From Filosporella fistucella (lineage: Eukaryota > Ascomycota > Leotiomycetes > Helotiales): 64,000 nt of DNA. Under the pieces are notes generated by a model that had not been told where the DNA came from, searched no databases, and saw only the letters and a list, made by a program, of their open reading frames with translations. The stretch is taken from assembly GCA_030077755.1 (NCBI GenBank), contig JAQJZZ010000010.1, positions 3,410,001 to 3,474,000 on the forward strand. The letters run 5' to 3'. Position numbers and translations under genes: made by a program. This document shows positions 5,774-51,325 of the stretch, in pieces. Numbering within the stretch: position 1 is the first letter of the stretch; each line of letters starts with the position of its first letter.

Positions 5774-7064
5774 GGCTGAAAGATATTGGTGAAGGTGAAA
5801 TGTACAAAGGAGAGGAGGCGTAAGTAGAAAAACCAAGACGAAGTACGTAGAGTCGATGATGTTGTTGTACCTCCGCATGCGAGGCAAGGCGATCATCAAA
5901 GAGGCGCGGAGCGGGCAGTCATCGGTAGCATTCGTCGTCAGGTGCATGTGCGGGATTACAGGGGTGGGACAAGTGTGACGAGTCAAGCCCAGGACGGTGA
6001 GTGATTGGTAATGCGCACTCCATGATTCAATATACGCAGCTTGAATGAAAAATGCAACAGGAATCAATATAATATTGGCAAAGAATAGCGCTATTTCATT
6101 TGTATAGCAGTAGAGTTCTTTACGTCTCAAATTAAATTCAATTTCTGGCGCTGCTACATCTCCCAGACTGCTTTCTACCAAGTAGCAATCTTAGACTGAG
6201 CTATCTATAGTCCTTTGTTAGGTAGCACTCACAGTTCCGCTTTGCACAGGAAGCTTACGAAGAGTAAGAAAGCGAGACAAGTATATTGTACAAATCAACT
6301 TGAGTTTGAATCAGGAGATGTAAAATATCTGGTAGCAACTTGTCCCAATATTTCAATGAATCACTCCTCTTTACTCTCATCATTTTGGGCAAGCAGAAGA
6401 ATTTACACCAAGCTTTAAGAGTTTCAAACTCTTAAATACTACTGGATTCTGGAGTTTCAAACTCTAAAACCAAGATGCTCGTCAAATACGATGTGCAACA
6501 AACATTTCCTCCTTGTTGCACGCCGTATTTTACATCGATGATCGATGGACCAATAAGACCAAGAGTTTCTCTCAGAAAGGCAGGACGGCCGTAGGCGAGC
6601 GGGAAAGGGGGTGTTCTAGTGTCACGAGCTGAAGAGCATTTATAATGAATATACACCTGTGAGCGTCTGGCCAAACAGAATAATATGGTCCTTTTAAGAC
6701 CCCCCCTTTTCCCATCATAATTCATTCGTTTGGACCGCGCTTACGAGATTCTACGATGATGAATATTCGATTCATACTGGCTTTATTTGGGTACTCAGTG
6801 TAGAGCAGTAGAAAACCAATGGTCAAAATGGTGCACCACAGCTTTGAATTTCCATAGGCGTAACCTAGAATAGTACTGTCGAGTCATAGATATTTTGAGT
6901 GTAAAATCAAACCAGGCGAGGAGCATCGCTCACTCTTCCCATTCTCCATCCCATGACGCTGAATCCACAACAAAGTAACATGCCACCGAACGCCGACGCC
7001 GCAGATGCCCACCTTCGCCATCCCAAACCCAATATGTAAAGACTGTGAATATCTATCTTAGTAC
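5774..7064. other. Intergenic region with palindromes
   Basis: 1.3 kb between ATG15 and the VPS9-domain gene. The part next to ATG15 should be its promoter. Short open frames here show no family features. Two copies of a GAGTTT-C-AAACTC palindrome lie at 6419-6431 and 6452-6464, described separately. Confidence 0.5.
6414..6436. repeat. 23-bp perfect palindrome, core repeated 33 bp away
   Basis: The sequence is TTTAAGAGTTT, a central C at 6425, then the exact inverse AAACTCTTAAA. The 13-bp core GAGTTTCAAACTC recurs at 6452-6464. Such symmetric sites could be a hairpin, a dimeric regulator site or the end of a decayed small transposon. Nothing here decides between these. Confidence 0.6.
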
Positions 7065-9432
7065 TCAAACAGCACCCATATCCTTCAACGCCGTGGCTAA
7101 ACGTCTATAATCTCTCAATAACTCTAATACCTCATTTAATTTCAAATCACCTGGGTTCTCCAAGGTCATGAATTTCTTGATCGGGGGTGCGATTTTCGGG
7201 GTTTCCTTTGGTGGTAGGACTGGTGCCAAGTCGGGAAAGGCCTATTGTTATTAGTATTGAATTGTATGAAATTTTGAGGACTTACAGTGGTAAGTTCTGC
7301 CACACCACCATCGGGGATTTGCTTTGCAACTGGTGGGGGAGTGGGTGTTGTGGGGGAACGACCAAAACCGCGTGAGAAGTTCAAACCAGCAATCCTAGAC
7401 ATAGGATTAAGTGAGTTTCCAAGATTTCGCATAGATTCCACAATCGCTGGATTTGCTGATGAAGAAGGTGCCGGCGCTGAAGTGTGCAATGGTGAAGGAG
7501 CTTTTTCTCCCTCCTCAGTGAATGTAACTTTTTTGCCGCTTCCTGCACTCCGAGAGCTATCTGCACTTCTGTCTCGAACTAGCTTTCTGCCCCCAATCAT
7601 GCTAAGCACCTTGTCATCATGTTTCGCCCCAGAGTCTGCCCGTTTCCTCTCGGTGGTTTCGGGGCTGTGAAGAGAGCTTGCACCGCTGACGGAATCCTCA
7701 TCTTCCGGAGGTGGCGTACTGACAAGCTTTCGGGCATCGTCTAGTGTCTTTGGCACAAGGATCTCTGCCTTTTGGCCACTAGATTCCTCTTGCTTCTCCT
7801 TTAGCTTTCCAAGAAGGAATTTGTAACTATCTCCGAGGCTGTTGCCAATGGACTTGAAGCCTTGATCTGCTGTATCCATGATTGCATCGCCAGCGGCACC
7901 CAGAACGGCTGGAGGCTGGAACATATCGCTTAGCCGACGATTATGGACTTGTAGCTGGGGACGGAGACCTGCTGGTGAAGGGAGAGCTTTAGTTATCGTC
8001 GGGCTCGCATTTTCAGAGCTGACCTCGGGAGCAGAAGCAACAGGAGATGTTGTAAGTCCAAGTATCATAGGATCAAATTTCTCTACCTTTGGGGTGATTG
8101 GTTTGGGCGGTCCTGATGGGACCTCATCCGCCCTCAAGCTTGCTAGATCCACAGTTTCCAAGAAGGTGATAGCAGCTTCCAGATTCGTCAAGCAATATGC
8201 AGCTTCCCCATCAATCTTGGATTCATTTCGGAACCTTTGAATGAAATACAAATTGCTTATAACATCAATTCCCTCCGGTCGAGATGTAATCAAAGTAAAA
8301 ATTAACATAGGCATAATCTCATCTGCCGAAGATGATGGATGGAAATGGGAAAGAGTATCGACGATCTGTTTGTGAGCAGCCTTCAAGTGGTGAAGCTTTC
8401 CAAGCGGGTATTTCTCATTGTTCATCGCACTCAACTCCTCTCTAGCACCTTCAAGCCATGCTTTAACCTCTTTTTCCTTGTCTTCTGTGGCGTCGGGGTT
8501 TTCGCTGGACTCCTGGCCTAGATCAATTCCAAGGTCTGTCAACCCTATGCCGACAACTGATAGAGCAGCAGTCTTCGACCTTAGCTTTTCGTCCTGGGCT
8601 TCGTCTTGAGTACTGCGGTGTCTCCAAATTCGATCATAGATCCCTTCAGTGACCCTCCTCTCCACAGCCTCTTCCAAAGCAACCCGTTTATGTTCCAAAA
8701 CTTTCCGAGCACGTTTACGACCAGCAATTTCTTCTGCCGTCAACATCTGCTGTTCAGAATCCCTTCTCTCGGGTGGGATCTTCGGTCTATCTTTGTTACT
8801 GATAGAAGCTGCCTTCGCTCTAAGCTTGCTTGCTGTGGAGGACAGTGAGGAAACTGATGGTGCTGGGGAGCTATTTCGATGTTGCCGCGATGATAACGCG
8901 GAGATATGTGTATTAATATGCGAAGCAGCAACGCCATAAAAGTCTTGAAATAAAGAAGATAGTTTATCAACGCTCGGAGGTGTTGGATGTACCTTGGCAG
9001 ATAAGGAGTCGATGAAGCTAAAGGACGTCAGAAGGTTTCTAGGTCGCGGAATTTGAATTCACACCTGTCACTCAAGCTAACCAACTCTATAGGTAGTTGG
9101 TCAAAATCATCTGGCAATTTCCCACTACTTTCTTCCTCCAGCTCATTTTCGTCATCTTCAGAGCTTTTCTCGAAGGCATCCAGTATTCGACCTTTTCCAC
9201 CCCCTTGAGCTATCCTCGATTTGTTTACTGTGACTCCTTCTGGTATTACTCCATTCTGAATAGTACTGGCACGTTGTACTCGCGTTGAGCGGTCTGGACT
9301 AGATGGCTCCAGCTTTGAATATGACTTGGACAATTGTAGTGGCCTTGGACGAGAGGTATCGCTCTTCTTCCCCGTGGGACTAGCCATGAAGTCTGGCAGA
9401 GTGAACATCATCTTGTCAGCTATGGACTGCAT
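7065..9432 (-). CDS. VPS9-domain protein, likely Rab5/Vps21 guanine-exchange factor
   Basis: VPS9 domains exchange GDP for GTP on Rab5-type GTPases in early endosome traffic. Three exons (9065-9432, 7286-9017, 7065-7241) give 758 residues. The first splice yields PIELVSLSDSFIDSLSAKVHPTPPSV with frame kept, and the last restores a tail LNEVLELLRDYRRLA. The VPS9 core lies around residues 350-415: DEIMPMLIF, ISNLYFIQRF, GEAAYCLTNLEAAI, including the conserved Asp and the YxLTN-x-AA motif. The rest is Ser/Pro-rich and probably disordered, with a charged helical region (about 214-300) before the domain. I see no C-terminal CUE domain of the yeast Vps9 type. The start is uncertain: ATGs at 9432 and 9387 are both possible, and a frame extends to 9567 without conservation. 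Confidence 0.85.
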
Positions 9433-32576: not shown

Positions 32577-33312
32577 CTAAGCAGCATCCTCGACCTCTCC
32601 CTCCCTCTTATACGATCCATACGAAGCATAAGATCCGTATCCCTTTGGTGTTGGGGTGGGAGTTGGTGTAGTGGTTGTTGGTGCTGGGTAGTTGTTATAT
32701 TGACCGTAGTCTATTTGATGTTAAAATAAGACAGCAGCGGTTGAGAGGGGGGCACATACTACCATAATCACCATACTTGCCATAATCTACGGGAGCGGCT
32801 TCTGGAGCTGGCTCTGGCTCTGGCTCGGCTTCACGCTTGTATGAGCCGTAGGAACCATAGGAGCCATAGGAGCCATATCCCGGGGTCGGGGTGGGAGTTG
32901 GCTTGGTGCTCGTGGTTGGAACTGGGTAGTTGTTGTATTTGCCGTAGTCTTTCAGTGTTAGCAATTTCGAGAATGAAGGGGCGAAAGAACCTACTGCCGT
33001 AGTCACCATACTTTCCGTAGTCTACAGGAGCAGCCTCTGGCGCTGGCTCAGGAGCTGCTTCTCTTTTGTATGAGCCGTAAGAACCATATGAGCCATATCC
33101 CGGTGTTGGGGTGGGAGATGGAGTAGAAGAGGTGGAGGTTGATACTCCTGGATAATTGTTGTATTGTCCGTAGTCTTGGAAAGAAATTAGAAGTGTGAGT
33201 TAAGTCAGTGATGGAGAGACATACTGCCATAGTCACCATAATTGCCATAGTCAGTTGGAACAGCAAGTACTGCAGAGGCAGCAGCCAGGAAAGCCAATTT
33301 TGAGAAGTGCAT
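32577..33312 (-). CDS. Secreted Kex2-type repeat precursor, candidate RiPP precursor
   Basis: 196 residues from four exons: 33225-33312, 32995-33174, 32760-32948, 32577-32710. A signal peptide (MHFSKLAFLAAASAVLA) leads into Tyr-Gly sequence (DYGNYGDYG). Exons 2-4 each carry one repeat: NYG-Q/K-YNNYP, a Thr/Pro linker (TPTPTPG), GYGSYGSYGSY, then Lys-Arg. The KR pairs are at 66-67, 127-128 and 187-188, 60-61 residues apart. Each KR is followed by Glu-Ala/Glu-Pro dipeptides, as trimmed by Ste13 in alpha-factor, or by EGEVEDAA at the end. All three introns cut after GG(C/T)-A (phase 1), so exons 2 (180 nt) and 3 (189 nt) are symmetric duplications. The divergent neighbour encodes a UstYa protein, the cyclising oxidase of dikaritin RiPPs. 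A cell-wall or adhesive peptide is the alternative. The product is unknown. Confidence 0.85.
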
Positions 33313-34879
33313 GGTGTTGGTAACCTGATGAGAGGTTGAGTCTTGGGAACAGAAGGAGATTTGCAGAGATGAGATTGTAGAATGAAAAGAGAGGTAGTTG
33401 TGATGATGGGAAAGCCAAATCCTTCGACGGAATGCCGACTTTATAACATCAAGTATGCTACGCAAAGTACCAACAGAATGACGACTGAAAGACTTTTACC
33501 CGAGGTTGAGGTATCAAGATACCATCTTGGCAAAAATTTCTATTCTTACAGCAACCAGAACCTTTCAATTCTGGGGCCCAAAGAAACCCACCAGCATAGT
33601 GCTCTTCTAAGTGTGTCAAGATCCGTATTGACACTTGCACACAAGCCATCCCTGGGTAACCCGCATTCAATAGCTATCCCAACTAGGAAGGATTAGGAAG
33701 ATGAGGCCAACGAGTGCATAGTCCGCACCTCATACGGCAAACATCACTCAAAGTCACCAAACTGCCGATACACAAGCTCAATTGACTATACTCTCATGCA
33801 GACCGTATCTGCAAGTCATGTTTGTTGACACCTGACACCAAAATGATGCGAATAGGGACAAGCTACAGAGAAAGAGGAAAGCAAACAGAGTATTCGATAT
33901 TGATTCGATCGGCAATGTAACGTTAGGCGGGGACAAGCACAGCCTTGCATATGGAGATACAGCTAGCTAGCTGGCAAAGAGACTCCGATCCAGATCATGT
34001 ACGAGATAACTTCGGCCGATTTGAAGAAGTACCTGTATCACCACAACAGCTGTTGTTGTATCACCGCATGTAGCAAGCCGAGCAGAAAAGAGACGACATT
34101 TACTCTTTTGCTACTCGTACCAGACACGTCAATACCCGACACATCCCTCATCCCTAACTCGGTCCGTCATCAAGCTTTGAGCGTACAATCGATTGGATAC
34201 CACGTACTCGAAACTCACCGCTATCCACTTTGTATCTCGTAAAGAAGAGAGGCCACGTCGGAAACAGCCAAGTGTGTTTTTTTCCTAGGAAGGGTAGCGA
34301 GGGTAGTGAAGTAGAACGGAGTTTGCTATTTTAAGAGCGAGAAGCCAGTGTGACATCAAGCGAGCTACAGTAGAAAGTCCCTTGCGGCTACGGAATTTGG
34401 ACTGTGGAGGGGTAGGTTTTTACGTGATGCGGGGTACATAAAAGTCATCACGCCGAGCCTCGTAAAATCTAAAATATTGTCTCGTATCGGTATGTCAATA
34501 TAAAGCGTGTTTACTAAGCCTTGCAAACGCCGTAAGACACGCCACACTTCGCTATTGGGTTGGGTAGTGTTTGCGTTCTAGTTCTGGATTGTTACTTTTG
34601 GTTCCAAATGTTTGGTTTCGTCCGATGCATGCCAACACGAGCACGGAGGAGCCCTTGCGTCATTTCAAGGATGGATTGCCATCATGTATGGGCTTCTTCC
34701 GAAGAGTGGATTGTGCAAAGAAGGCTGGGTAGTCGGTGCTTGTCTCTTAGAAGTTCTTTTTGAGCGTCTCCTCTTCTCTTCGTGTTCCACATAGGCGGAT
34801 CTCGTTTCAGTCTCTAGATATATCTCTACTTACTTGCCCGGCAAACAAAACCATCTGAAATTCTTTCCTGCATATCAAC
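33313..34879. other. Divergent promoter region of precursor and UstYa genes
   Basis: 1.57 kb between two start codons on opposite strands. No gene is supported. Small frames at 33997-34242 and 34560-34794 have no features of secreted peptides or enzymes. The region should contain shared control elements; I see no obvious cluster regulator site. Confidence 0.45.
33439..33446 (-). promoter_or_regulatory. TATA-like box of the repeat-precursor gene
   Basis: TTATAAAG on the minus strand, about 127 bp before the precursor ATG, followed by a C/T-rich stretch that would serve as the leader, a layout common for highly expressed secreted fungal proteins. Confidence 0.4.
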
Positions 34880-35824
34880 ATGTCATATTCTGCTTTAGAG
34901 GATAAAGGCGAGAATGGCTCTCGGCCTGCCGAAGATTATGAAAGTCTTCTGCCACAAGCCGAAGAGACTTCCTTCAGAAGAATCTCAAGGAAAGCCCCTA
35001 CTTGGGCACCATTTGCAGTCATCCCATTGGTGTCTCTTTGTATCTTCGGACTTGGGATATGGGTGGGAAGTGCCTGGTCTTCCAATGATGCATTCTGCCT
35101 CGAGCATGTCCAAAAGTGGTGTAAGTATCTCGAATCGTTGCATAGGTTGTATTTAACTAAGTTATCCCAGCCCCAATTCAGAAAGATGTCGACAACTCCT
35201 TTCACATTGTCCGCTTCAATGGCTCCCTCCTCAAAGAAAACGAGTTCCGACGAGAAGCAGGACCTGAGGTGGACGCCGCATGGGAGTCACTTGGTGTAAA
35301 TTGTAAGTCTCTGCTCCATACTTGAACCTACATTTACTGACACTATCCCAGATAGGAGTATAGCTGTACCTATTAGACATGCCGAAAGGTCTGGCATAAA
35401 AAGAGATCAAGTCCAAATCCAACCAAGATATGGCGGAGGATTTCCAGCCAATGTCGAAGGCCTTCATCATCTTCACTGCTTGAATCTCCTCCGACAATCT
35501 CTCTACTACAATATTGACTACTATCGCTCTCAAGGCAAAGGAGCATTTGTCAACGACGATGCGATTGTTCGTCATCATGTCTCACACTGTCTAGACGTTA
35601 TTCGCCAACAGTTGATGTGTTTTCCTGATACCGGGCTTCTTGGGCAAGTCTGGTGGGACCAAAACCACCCAAAAGCATTTGTGGACTTTAACACCGATCA
35701 CAAATGCAAAAACTTCGATGCGATCCGAGAGTGGGCTAGAGTCAGACAGATACCCGAGAGAGTACCAGAAGATTATCTGAAGCCTCCTCAGGTTGGAGAT
35801 ACTATCTATGCTGAGATTCCCTAG
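34880..35824 (+). CDS. UstYa-family (DUF3328) oxidase, candidate RiPP cyclase
   Basis: UstYa proteins are membrane-anchored, probably copper-dependent oxidases that crosslink core peptides in ustiloxin, asperipin and similar fungal RiPPs. Three exons (34880-35120, 35171-35302, 35352-35824) give 281 residues, with both 49-50-bp introns ending CCCAG. A cytosolic N-terminus with an acidic region (ESLLPQAEET) precedes one TM helix (about 43-66, FAVIPLVSLCIFGLGIWVG), placing the catalytic domain in the lumen. Both family His-Cys motifs are intact: HHLHC (163-167) and HHVSHC (199-204). The family-typical CFPDTGLLGQVWW and a DFNT-x-HKCKNFDAIREW tail follow. It faces the repeat precursor across 1.57 kb. 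No second UstYa, tyrosinase or peptidase gene lies nearby, so the set would resemble the single-UstY asperipin system. Confidence 0.93.
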
Positions 35825-36622: not shown

Positions 36623-37847
36623 CTACTTCCCAACCCTGACCAATTTACTGTGATATCTTGCGGCTTTGCCCCTTCGCAAAACGAAGAGCCAGAACAACAA
36701 TCCGAAAGCAACTAGCAGATGTCAGTATCTTATACAAAGCTGATGGAGGAGCCGTTTCGAGCAGAATTGAGACGCCTTAAGAAATCCATCGGAAATCCTA
36801 CTCACTTCCACCAAGATCCCCTTCATGGTCCATATTCTGGAAAGGAGTGCCATCGAGAATTCCTATTGTACCAGCGGTAGAAAACCCCACTAAAAGTCCT
36901 AGGAGTGCCAATGAGCGAGCACTGGGATTTTGAGCAATGCATGCTGCCATTAGTCCCATTATATCACCCCAACCACCTACCACTTGCTCAACGCGACCGA
37001 AACTTCTCTCCTGTATGGCATATAAGGTGCAAACAGACCCTGCAATGGCAGAGCCAAAGTATAGAGCCAGAAAACCTTGCAGCCGAAACCACCGAAAAGC
37101 AAGAGGCCCCCATCCAGATAAAGCAAAGGTCCTGCAGACGAGGTGTATGAAGCCTGGCGCGAGAAAGTATTGCGTGACAAGCGTATAGTATCTGCCATCA
37201 TCTATACTCTGGATGGAGAGACACAATTTGTCCATATATTCTTGGAGCTTTCGCATGTTGGGTATGGACGAAGTTCCCCGCATGTCCCTCTCCACTATGA
37301 CCTGCGCAAGATATACAGCAATGCCCACTACGATGAACCCTCCTACTACTAAAAACATATGTTCATGCGGAGGATCACGAGTAAAATGGCTCTCCCCGGC
37401 GACTAGATTGCGTTCTTCTTCGCTGCGAAATACATCTTCAAGGCTTTTCAGATTGGATGCGATAGAAACCTCCTCAGATACACGGGATATTTGTTCGGTG
37501 TCCAAAGCCTCGGGTTTGCTATTACCTCTGGGGAAATATATCTTCCCAACGCTGGCGCTCGAAGGCTCAGAGTGCACGTCATTGGCGCCCTCATCCCTGA
37601 GTGGAAAGTATCTTTTGCCCTGATTTCTACTGGGTGGACTAAAGTATCTTTTTTCTAGCAGCTGATTGCTCTGACCGAATTGTCTGTAGACGCGATGTGT
37701 GATCGAGGTAGAAGGTGGGGTTGAGAGCTGGATTCCGTCAGTGGAAACAACACAAGCAAGGTTGAAGCTTACCAACGCTCGAAGAATTGGTGTTTTACAT
37801 GGTTGACAAAGACTGGCAGAGCGTGACAATCTCTGTAGGAAGATCAT
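36623..37847 (-). CDS. Rhomboid-fold membrane protein lacking the Ser/His dyad
   Basis: 376 residues from two exons (36806-37847, 36623-36711). The second exon adds the last membrane helix (IAFGLLFWLFVL) and a basic tail, so stopping at 36798 would truncate the protein. The N-terminus is basic and may target mitochondria. Residues about 75-120 hold three related motifs, EKRYFSPP, GKRYFPLR and GKIYFPRG. The rhomboid pattern follows: DDGRYYTLVTQYFLAPGFIHLV, then FLALYFGSAIAGS. Where active enzymes have G-x-S-G there is GGWGDIMGL (Trp for Ser), and where they have AHLGG there is GDLGG (Asp for His). It is therefore a pseudoprotease by sequence. It may still bind membrane substrates, as iRhoms do. 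It is convergent with the UstYa gene; whether it belongs to that locus is unclear. Confidence 0.78.
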
Positions 37848-50212: not shown

Positions 50213-51325
50213 ATGCCTCTATCTACCCCTCCACCTCCACTCGATTTTATCCACCTCCCAGGCTACGAAGTGCCTACAAAGCATAAAGAAGCAATTAGAC
50301 AGCTCCACTGGTTCGGCAAAGTGTCTAGAATAAATTTGCAGCACCGCTATCACCTCCCAGAGTCTACAATCCGCAAGATCCTATCCTACGAGGCTCCTGA
50401 GCGCAAGCGAGAGGGCCGCAAAGGACGCCCTGAGCACCTCACAGATCGACAAATAGATGTTATAATCGAATATTGTTCTGAGCATTGGGAGACACGTATC
50501 CTCGACTACGCTGCCGTATGTAGAGAGCTTAAACTCGACGTAGCACCATCGACGCTACAAAAGCGGTTCCATCAAAGAGGCTATTATCGCTGTGTTGCTT
50601 GCCAGAAACCCTACCTCACTGCCACCCAAGTTCTAGCTCGACTACTCTGGGCATACGCACACTTATTCTGGCATTTAGAATGGCTAAAGGTGCTCTGGTC
50701 TGACGAGGTCACTTTTCTTATTGGAGGCAGATCTGCGAAGCAGAAAGTTACTCGCAAACGCGGCGAGCGGTGCCATCCTACGTGTATTTAGCACCAGTTC
50801 CACCGTGGCCATACTACACCTGTTAATGCGTGGGGAGCAATTGGATATGGCTATAAGAGCCCTCTCTACTTTATCCATGGATCTGGTAAGACAGGCGCCT
50901 TTGTTTAGACCGACTATTTGTCTCAAATCCTAGAAAAGCTACCTCCTTTGCTCGAAGCTTTTGCGCTAATTACCCACCAACTCAAGCCGTCGGCGGAGCC
51001 TTTATTTATGGAAGATGGTAACTCTGCACATGGGCATAGGTCTATAAGGAATTGCTGCGCTCGTTTCCGGACTGCGCACGGAATTATACTGATGCCACAC
51101 CCTTCTACGAGCCCTGATATGAATCCAATTGAGAAGGTTTGGCGTAGAATGAAGCAGTCGCTTCATAGGCGCAGACACCAGCCTACTACGGTTGCTGAGA
51201 TGGAAGCCGCAATACTCGAGGAATGGGAAAAAGTGCCACAAGAATGGATTAATCAGTTGATTTTAAAGCAGGAGCATTGGGTCCAGGTACTATTAGACCG
51301 TCAGGGCTGGTCTACCCCTAATTAA
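50213..51325 (+). pseudogene. Tc1/mariner transposase with two in-frame TAG stops
   Basis: From the ATG at 50213 the frame covers 370 codons in one phase with no frameshift. N-terminal helix-turn-helix regions are visible (HRYHLPESTIRKILSYE; DYAAVCRELKLDVAPSTLQKRF), then the DDE/D catalytic core: WSDEVTF, FMEDGNSAHGH, and SPDMNPIEKVWRRMKQ. TAG codons stand at 50789-50791 (between TCI and HQFHRGH) and 50906-50908 (between GAFV and TDYLSQIL). At both places Gln is the expected residue, so both are explained by CAG to TAG, a single C to T change. The rest of the frame is undamaged. It is either a recently inactivated copy or a TAG read-through case; inactivation is much more likely. Confidence 0.88.

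Follow-up and report, generated by a model that had tools for sequence, protein, structure and literature searches.

A divergent gene pair in Filosporella fistucella, a Tyr/Gly repeat precursor and a UstYa oxidase, as a candidate peptide-modifying system

A gene for a protein rich in Tyr and Gly lies beside a gene for a UstYa oxidase in the 64,000-nucleotide stretch of Filosporella fistucella DNA analysed here (the window). The question raised by this locus is whether the two genes work together to make a modified secreted peptide and, if so, what kind of peptide it could be.

The precursor gene is on the minus strand (32577..33312), and homologs of it were found. It has four exons (33312-33225, 33174-32995, 32948-32760, and 32710-32577) and three predicted GT-AG introns of 50, 46, and 49 nt. 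When spliced in silico it encodes 196 amino acids, with the ATG at 33312 and the stop codon ending at 32577. The initial annotation had described a 196-residue protein with three repeats separated by Lys-Arg, and splicing these introns gives exactly this gene model. The hydrophobic N-terminus, judged by eye, is a probable signal peptide, MHFSKLAFLAAASAVLA (residues 1-17, 33262..33312). A17 and P19 are invariant in 12 of 12 rows of an alignment (A2). The core of repeat 1 (residues 18-65, 33068..33261, split by intron 33175-33224) has GYGSYGSYGSY at its C-terminal end. It is followed by a Kex2-type Lys-Arg site (33062..33067) and by the spacer EA-AP-EP-AP-EA-AP (33026..33061), a series of Ste13-type dipeptides in register. 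The core of repeat 2 (47 amino acids, 32839..33025, split by intron 32949-32994) consists of VDYGKYGDYGNYGKYNNYP, a linker, and GYGSYGSYGSYGSY. Behind it are the second Lys-Arg site (32833..32838) and the spacer EA-EP-EP-EP-AP-EA-AP (32791..32832), again of Ste13-type dipeptides in register. The core of repeat 3 has 44 amino acids (32610..32790, split by intron 32711-32759) and leads to the third Lys-Arg site (32604..32609) and the tail EGEVEDAA. All of these features are on the minus strand, and the Kex2-type sites were assigned by sequence.

Every one of the three repeats ends in YKR. XA or XP dipeptides make up 6 of 6 and 7 of 7 positions in the two spacers, and none follow the third Lys-Arg. 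Tyr is found mostly at every third residue of the Tyr/Gly repeats, and the low-complexity YGSYGSY blocks are connected via Thr/Pro linkers. The protein has no Trp or Cys, and a Pfam scan of it matched no family, including no pheromone domain. Between repeat copies 1 and 3, the 13 codons of the C-terminal block show 11 synonymous changes and 1 non-synonymous change. The codons have drifted while the residues were kept, and therefore it is the peptide, not the DNA, that is conserved; judged from these codons, the repeats are under purifying selection. Candidate UstYa substrate peptides from the precursor are GYGSYGSYGSY and DYGKYGDYGNYGQYNNYP. A search of literature text, supplements aside, found no paper with the core peptide strings.

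The UstYa (DUF3328) gene is on the plus strand (34880..35824; exons 34880-35120, 35171-35302, and 35352-35824) and encodes 281 amino acids. The protein matches Pfam UstYa, PF11807, with an E-value of 4.5e-57 and 193.9 bits, against a curated cut-off of 25. Two HxxHC motifs were located through the homolog alignment, HHLHC at residues 163-167 (35465..35479) and HVSHC at residues 200-204 (35576..35590). This alignment had 121 rows; 8 short ones were left out and the 113 of at least 255 residues were counted. H163, H166, C167, and H200 are present in 113 of 113 rows, and H203 and C204 in 98%. A structure model of the Acephala ortholog has a single long helix at 40-64, and both HxxHC motifs are helical. 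Neither single-sequence nor profile searches found a solved structure. By analogy with studied relatives, the enzyme is inferred to be a dicopper oxidase that depends on oxygen (PMC12435403).

The initial annotation had placed a full UstYa with both histidine motifs 1.57 kb from the precursor on the other strand, and this holds, the gap being 1,567 bp. It had also described the two genes as facing each other. The precursor is on the minus strand and UstYa on the plus strand; therefore they point apart and are divergent. The start-to-start gap (33313..34879) is a shared upstream region with short ORFs only. A rhomboid-domain gene is found at 1 kb, and a FAD-binding monooxygenase gene is further off. 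An MFS transporter gene and two short-chain dehydrogenase genes are 21, 13, and 11 kb distant and therefore not clearly part of the pair. Several other neighbouring genes are ordinary ones (VPS9, Torus-domain, UreF, and ArgJ). A Pfam scan of 28 further ORFs in the window found no S41-type peptidase, methyltransferase, or tyrosinase. The likeness to asperipin that had been claimed, one UstYa and no tyrosinase, agrees with the lack of any tyrosinase match within the window; the nearest matches, at 2.94 Mb of C9, are some 0.5 Mb distant. Tyrosinase is an optional feature of the dikaritin class; ustiloxin and phomopsin need one and none is listed for asperipin. The genome has one place for a Kex2-like enzyme and two for dipeptidyl peptidases.

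The core-end pattern, YxxYGxYKR, has five matches in three places of the 45.8 Mb genome, although it is blind to precursors with an intron inside the signature. A second Tyr/Gly-Lys-Arg pattern gave 4 matches genome-wide, those of both patterns all lie in three places, and the reversed control gave 0. An Arginine variant that allowed other small residues gave 2 matches against 3 in its reversed control, neither of them at a UstYa place, and was set aside as chance. All three signature places adjoin, divergently, a UstYa of one subfamily. The gaps are 1,567, 1,359, and 1,143 bp, the start codons of the two pairs outside the window having been picked by eye. The dikaritin-like pairing that was first proposed is thus supported. 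The precursor was not found apart from UstYa in this genome (3 of 3 places have one), although its being widespread without such a neighbour had been named as grounds for refutation. One of the three enzyme copies, on C13, looks broken.

The UstYa genes were grouped by us into 18 separate places, and the window and 17 other regions were scanned. The Tyr/Gly precursor is present at 3 of the 18, which are the window and the two top scorers with a model of its relatives. A Tyr-ladder scan found these precursors and none at the remaining 15 places, and a stricter Tyr/Gly scan recovered only the C1 copy and missed the window gene. A scan for unspliced repeat precursors in the 17 UstYa regions returned two plausible but unrelated candidates, together with two stretches rich in basic residues that were judged spurious. 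It missed the Tyr/Gly precursors, including that of the window, probably because introns split the genes. When ORFs of at least 40 amino acids from 25-45 kb of the window were compared with the other two loci, only the enzyme and the precursor matched. A larger cluster common to the three loci is thus not supported within the 14 kb compared. The three intergenic regions have no 9- to 12-mer in common. A low-complexity artefact was also rejected, since the repeat codons have diverged with the residues kept and the patterns match nowhere outside three UstYa places. The three pairs may come from one duplicated ancestor and are therefore not taken as three independent events.

Relatives of the precursor come from six Pezizomycotina classes among the matches listed (120 of 141). 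In 84 precursor relatives, 834 of 1,151 neighbouring Tyr pairs are spaced 3 apart, and 64 of the 84 have a single Tyr-Lys/Arg-Arg site and no repeats. XA or XP follows 89 of 185 dibasic sites, compared with 23% in general (2,267/9,952). Species named in both homolog lists were treated as comparable, and a shared contig was read from equal contig sizes. Conservation of the pair in relatives, suggested earlier as a check, was seen in this form: precursor and UstYa are on equally long contigs in 4 of 4 comparable species among the matches listed. These are Amylocarpus encephaloides, Acephala macrosclerotiorum, Geoglossum umbratile, and Tothia fuscella. Geoglossum umbratile is the only species that gives closeness, its two gene numbers being adjacent. 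Of these precursors, that of Tothia is the weakest: its model has 70 aa, ends in YKKE, and lacks Lys-Arg. A contig of 934 bases also appears in both lists (metagenome records P0182 and P0090), but it could not hold the two genes and was left out of the count. There are 584 UstYa relatives at E <=1e-20, and the best 120, which were examined, include Aspergillus, Penicillium, and powdery mildews. No precursor from these groups is named among the 120 of 141 matches listed, and thus a one-to-one pairing may not hold for them. The UstYa tree branches mostly with taxonomy, and four genera of powdery mildews retain the enzyme. The divergence, the Ste13-type spacers, the two further pairs, and the wide family go beyond the initial annotation.

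We consider it likely, with some reserve, that the pair is a two-gene divergent unit making a modified secreted peptide, with a UstYa dedicated to a Tyr/Gly substrate family. The precursor would enter the secretory pathway, where the membrane-anchored UstYa could act in the lumen on the side chains of Tyr residues in the YGx ladders. UstYa probably modifies the precursor's tyrosines. The chemistry would most likely be Tyr-based crosslinks inside one ladder, but the reaction could instead be another oxidation, hydroxylation or desaturation. Kex2 would cleave after Lys-Arg, a Kex1-like enzyme would trim the Lys-Arg, and a Ste13-like dipeptidyl aminopeptidase would remove the XA/XP dipeptides, leaving cores of about 44-47 residues. 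Pairs of this kind recur within the genome and also turn up in distant fungi, which points to an old system dedicated to peptide modification. Because the enzyme is widely spread and its tree follows taxonomy for the most part, an endogenous role, in wall, spore, or signalling, seems more likely than that of a niche toxin, and perhaps the peptide has such a role. A bolder proposal has, in our view, clearly less than an even chance. Under it, a Pezizomycotina-wide, mostly vertically inherited UstYa lineage would have the single task of oxidatively crosslinking the Tyr ladders (i, i+3, i+6...) of small secreted Tyr/Gly peptides. The product, stapled or polymerising, would have a core function in the life of the fungus, for instance in wall, spore, or signal.

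The ladders could instead self-assemble on hyphae or spores and be hardened by Tyr crosslinks, with UstYa making the crosslinks or activated Tyr. The YGSYGSY blocks with their Thr/Pro linkers would suit a structural surface peptide, as would the wide and largely taxonomic spread of the enzyme. Rep1 of Ustilago, which is Kex2-processed, gives peptides that attach to hyphae, although it lacks the Ste13 signature (PMC6339444). The UstYa enzymes named in the sources act on small peptides, and we regard this structural role as possible but rather doubtful. An ordinary dikaritin-type defensive or toxic metabolite, made from short core pieces after further proteolysis, seems unlikely to us. A precursor paired with UstYa is the dikaritin hallmark, and a survey places UstYa within 15 genes of 22% of Kex2-processed repeat proteins (PMC7329392). 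The rhomboid-domain gene, the MFS transporter, the two dehydrogenases, and the FAD-binding monooxygenase could in principle contribute. However, the 28 scanned ORFs lack the S41-type peptidase, methyltransferase, and tyrosinase, the transporter and oxidoreductases are 11-21 kb off, and several neighbours are ordinary, with none common to the other two pairs. The enzyme's mostly taxonomic branching and its retention in powdery mildews also argue against such a metabolite.

It is quite improbable that the product is an unmodified pheromone-like signal, matured by Kex2, Kex1, and Ste13 only, with UstYa as a bystander. The perfect XA/XP spacers are as in alpha-pheromone precursors, and such precursors yield linear peptides in two surveys (PMC6339444, PMC7329392). 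However, UstYa is near or on the same contig in 3 of 3 places of this genome and 4 of 4 comparable species among the matches listed, and the precursor has no Pfam domain. This reading is not preferred because the UstYa link is conserved and a pheromone domain is lacking.

The two-gene, UstYa-modified peptide system thus stays the preferred reading. It links one UstYa subfamily to a substrate family that can be recognised by its YGx ladders ending in YKR. The link is seen at three places of one genome and again across distant fungi, so that an enzyme, a substrate, and an organism can be selected for direct tests. If the ladders are crosslinked, the pair would provide tyrosine-stapled peptides of 40 or more residues by a genetically encoded route and would hint that some members of the UstYa family have an endogenous function. 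If the core role is true, we know of no earlier UstYa system whose role was core and not accessory, and pheromone-type maturation and UstYa modification would be regularly combined. The Tyr/Gly pair joins Ste13-type maturation to a UstYa neighbour, two features that are mostly apart in surveys. The UstYa enzymes described in the cited papers belong to pathways for toxins and other metabolites of an accessory kind.

The pair is best read as following the dikaritin logic, with long Tyr/Gly ladders as its distinguishing feature. Epichloecyclin has been grouped with the dikaritins ustiloxin, phomopsin, asperipin-2a, and victorin (PMC10512285). Like these, the pair has a precursor, here putatively secreted, with predicted Kex2 sites, Tyr-bearing cores, and an adjoining UstYa-family gene, and like asperipin-2a it has one UstYa and no tyrosinase. 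Dikaritin cores are short, whereas those predicted here are 44-47 residues long, with Tyr spaced mostly three positions apart. Ste13-type spacers are said to be absent from the ustiloxin, phomopsin, and epichloecyclin precursors (PMC6339444), whereas the Tyr/Gly precursor has them. The pair also differs from dikaritins as a two-gene unit, as far as seen, with an enzyme lineage that extends across classes. Ascomycete alpha-pheromone precursors have the same Kex2, Kex1, and Ste13-type layout with XA/XP spacers, but the Tyr/Gly precursor lacks Trp, Cys, and the Pfam pheromone domain and has a UstYa neighbour. Such a neighbour is rare for pheromone genes, with three exceptions, among them one in Rutstroemia that lies two genes away (PMC7329392). 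The Tyr-rich types G-5 and G-6 of that survey may overlap with the present family. Rep1 shares the layout predicted here, that of a Kex2-processed secreted repeat protein, but it lacks the Ste13 signature and the available text mentions no UstYa link (PMC6339444). By description, the enzyme resembles the copper-dependent DUF3328 proteins CctR/AprY in having a single membrane helix, the HxxHC(x)nHxxHC signature spread over two helices, and a conserved C-terminal Cys. CctR is described with a long membrane helix and both motifs on helices (PMC12435403). Unlike the CctR/AprY systems, the putative substrate here is a long Tyr/Gly peptide.

The precursor MHFSKLAFLAAASAVLAVPTDYGNYGDYGNYGQYNNYPGVSTSTSSTPSPTPTPGYGSYGSYGSYKREAAPEPAPEAAPVDYGKYGDYGNYGKYNNYPVPTTSTKPTPTPTPGYGSYGSYGSYGSYKREAEPEPEPAPEAAPVDYGKYGDYGNYGQYNNYPAPTTTTPTPTPTPKGYGSYASYGSYKREGEVEDAA is encoded by four exons on the minus strand of the window (32577..33312) and has 196 residues in the spliced translation. 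Its introns are of the GT-AG type (50, 46 and 49 nt), and each repeat is interrupted once, at an equivalent position. The UstYa gene (34880..35824, plus strand) has three exons and encodes 281 aa. The initial annotation placed its product in the UstYa family, and the Pfam UstYa profile agrees (E 4.5e-57). The coordinates, lengths and motifs proposed for this fungal RiPP locus also proved correct. However, the precursor was described as facing the UstYa gene, and the two genes are in fact transcribed divergently from start codons 1,567 bp apart.

Each repeat of the precursor runs from an N block, DYGxYGDYGNYGxYNNYP, through a Thr/Pro linker to a C block, GYGSYxSYGSY, and Lys-Arg. Tyr residues are spaced by three in 25 of 30 neighbouring Tyr pairs. 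In the two spacers between repeats, Ala or Pro is second in every dipeptide (6/6 and 7/7), and both runs stop exactly at the VDYG of the next repeat. The piece C-terminal of the last Lys-Arg has no Ala/Pro-ending dipeptides. Alpha-pheromone precursors have this XA/XP layout, which is trimmed by Ste13-type dipeptidyl aminopeptidases (PMC6339444). The predicted mature cores are 47 residues for repeat 2 and 44 for repeat 3. In pairwise comparisons of the repeat copies, the N blocks (18 codons) differ by 6-8 synonymous and 1-2 non-synonymous changes, and the C blocks (13 codons) by 4-11 and 0-1. Synonymous changes far outnumber non-synonymous ones, and therefore the residues are kept by selection.

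The search for UstYa relatives returned 584 proteins at E <=1e-20, with the best 120 listed. The enzyme possesses two HxxHC motifs. Across the 113 aligned rows of at least 255 residues (8 shorter rows of 121 were dropped), no variation occurs at H163, H166, C167 or H200, and conservation is 98% at H203 and C204. The Acephala ortholog P0030, with 63% identity to the window UstYa, was modelled with AlphaFold2 from an alignment of 47 of the best 120 of 584 relatives (mean pLDDT 76.9, pTM 0.64). The model has a single long helix (40-64), and the HxxHC motifs lie within helices 160-177 and 194-213. A sequence-based search of solved structures gave no match to the enzyme. From the chemistry of its family, the enzyme would carry out a dedicated reaction on tyrosine.

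There are at least 27 UstYa exon matches in the 45.8 Mb F. fistucella genome (19 contigs), which we grouped into 18 separate places. The surrounding 13-16 kb of each of the other 17 was examined, and a Tyr-ladder scan of all 18 found precursors only in the window and on contigs C1 and C13. The second pair (C1:807-810 kb; stretch L021 joined with L022, about 6264-9060) consists of a UstYa paralog and a divergent, single-core Tyr/Gly precursor 1,359 bp away. This precursor has 84 aa, the C-terminal end GGYGSYGAYKRAIGEWVKKIWN and an amphipathic tail beyond its Lys-Arg. The third pair (C13:3075-3078 kb; L025 joined with L026, about 6254-8630) has a 77-aa Tyr/Gly precursor ending in YGNYAKYGNYGTYKREPEAKAEADVVEDMKV, divergent and 1,143 bp from a UstYa gene that is apparently broken by a stop codon and a frame change within the domain. 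A UstYa subfamily profile (window protein and the best 120 of 584 relatives) gave summed scores of 388 bits for the C1 copy, 331 for the C13 copy, 207 for the next place and at most 87 for the remainder; two UstYa places had no match to it.

Genome-wide patterns were run independently of the UstYa places. YGxYGxYKR gave four matches and YxxYGxYKR five, every one in the three precursors, and reversed-pattern controls across the whole genome gave none. By our arithmetic, the chance of one precursor lying within 1.6 kb of any of the 18 places is about 0.13%. For all three it is about two in a billion, a figure that overstates independence if the pairs were duplicated from one. Two other UstYa places (L031, C15:2.01 Mb; L033, C2:0.23 Mb) have unrelated Kex2-type repeat precursors with the unit DTxxIKAAVDAISxxDY. 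The spacer pattern also found a Cys-rich repeat protein, read by eye (CWSTCSTNCVNDGNLRGGLC..., with Lys-Arg and an EAAPAP spacer), at C9:1.49 Mb (L009, about 1340-1700, minus).

ORFs of at least 40 aa from window 25-45 kb had no match at the C1 and C13 loci beyond the enzyme and precursor. The nearest neighbours of the window pair are a HET gene on one side and, on the other, a pectate lyase and a rhomboid-domain gene (36798-37847, minus, about 1 kb downstream of UstYa). The rhomboid-domain gene had no match near the C1 and C13 pairs. Pfam scans covered 28 ORFs of the window in addition to the pair; the window has 66 ORFs of at least 120 aa, many overlapping. An MFS transporter (about 21 kb from the pair), an FAD-binding monooxygenase (about 17 kb) and two short-chain dehydrogenases (about 13 and 11 kb) are present. 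The window also carries VPS9, Torus-domain, UreF and ArgJ genes. Tyrosinase matches come no closer to the pair than about 0.5 Mb. Tc1/mariner-like transposase remains (50213-51325, two ORFs) matched DDE_3, with HTH_Tnp_Tc3_2 just under the cut-off.

Relatives of the precursor numbered 16 by single-sequence search and 141 (E <=0.01, best 120 listed) by a 12-row profile, both searches scoring only the approximately 8,000 candidates with most words in common. Among the matches listed, 86 of 120 passed a simple filter (Tyr-Lys/Arg/His-Arg and at least four Tyr-small pairs). Two of these, the ATPase-domain proteins P0224 and P0226, were taken as bacterial and set aside; their tails hold a similar KYGKYGSYGSYGDYGEY cluster, which we take as convergence. 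In the remaining 84, consecutive Tyr residues form 1,151 pairs, 834 of them with a spacing of three, and a Tyr-Lys/Arg-Arg site occurs just once in 64 of these proteins. Named holders include Leotiomycetes, Geoglossomycetes, Lecanoromycetes, Dothideomycetes, Eurotiomycetes and Sordariomycetes (classes checked for examples). A tail past the last Lys-Arg, KRAxDFVKRLWS and variants, was found by text pattern in 20 of the 86 (e.g., P0011, P0139, P0154, P0181, P0205 and P0222) and also in the C1 precursor; it was not seen in the window precursor. It may be a follower recognition sequence or a second peptide.

At least four species are common to the listed precursor and UstYa matches. The pair appears linked in all four, with identical contig size as the proxy for a shared contig: Amylocarpus encephaloides (72,057), Acephala macrosclerotiorum (848,192), Tothia fuscella (368,983) and Geoglossum umbratile (101,775; neighbouring gene numbers M1839_000997 and M1839_000998). 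The simple filter rejects the Tothia precursor, a model of 70 aa with the C-terminus YKKE. The random chance of all four linkages is about 9e-10, assuming genomes of about 40 Mb; inherited linkage would be a single event. In a quick enzyme tree (62 rows: window, 3 paralogs and 58 of the best 120 of 584 relatives), a Leotiomycetes group of 32 rows (SH-aLRT 99) includes the window enzyme together with the two Leotiomycete enzymes that are linked to a precursor and sequences from four powdery mildew genera. Outside this group are a few other Leotiomycete rows (Sclerotinia borealis, Pseudogymnoascus and Xylogone) as well as the C1 and C13 paralogs; the enzymes of Geoglossum and Tothia belong to a different group with weak support (82). 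Subgroups of the Leotiomycetes group mostly match the taxonomy, with the exception that the Acephala enzyme adjoins the powdery mildews. Such branching is compatible with vertical descent. Aspergillus, Penicillium and powdery mildews have enzymes among the UstYa matches listed, and no precursor from them is named among the best 120 of 141 matches. Thus, either annotation of these fungi has missed a short, intron-split precursor gene or the enzyme acts on other substrates.

The precursor-oxidase pair is real and under selection, and the two are very probably dedicated to each other. The pair is dikaritin-like in logic. It is apparently new in its substrate family, maturation layout and breadth. 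None of the conserved motifs written out in sections of the surveys PMC6339444 and PMC7329392 is a Tyr/Gly ladder. Topic and copper literature searches gave no title on such a precursor family. In the main texts of the openly accessible papers searched, the strings GYGSYGSY, YGSYGSYKR, GYGSYGSYGSY, YGNYGKYG, GGYGSYGSY, YGSYKR, YGKYGNYG, YGTYKR and YASYGTYKR had no match. The Tyr-rich types G-5 and G-6 (PMC7329392) possibly overlap with this family. Because of this possible overlap and the weak Tothia precursor, our confidence in a dedicated dikaritin-like pair is slightly lowered, and we regard it as fairly probable.

According to PMC7329392, 22% of 7,878 Kex2-processed repeat proteins have a UstYa gene no more than 15 genes away (mean 3.09 genes); near pheromone types such genes are almost absent, with three exceptions. 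Le Marquer et al. reported the Ste13 signature as missing from the precursors of ustiloxin and phomopsin, which are toxic cyclic peptides, and of epichloecyclin (PMC6339444), whereas the window precursor has Ste13-type spacers. CctR is described as a dicopper enzyme of the DUF3328 family that is anchored in the membrane and requires its HxxHC residues (PMC12435403), and the long helix and helix-borne HxxHC motifs of the P0030 model agree with it.
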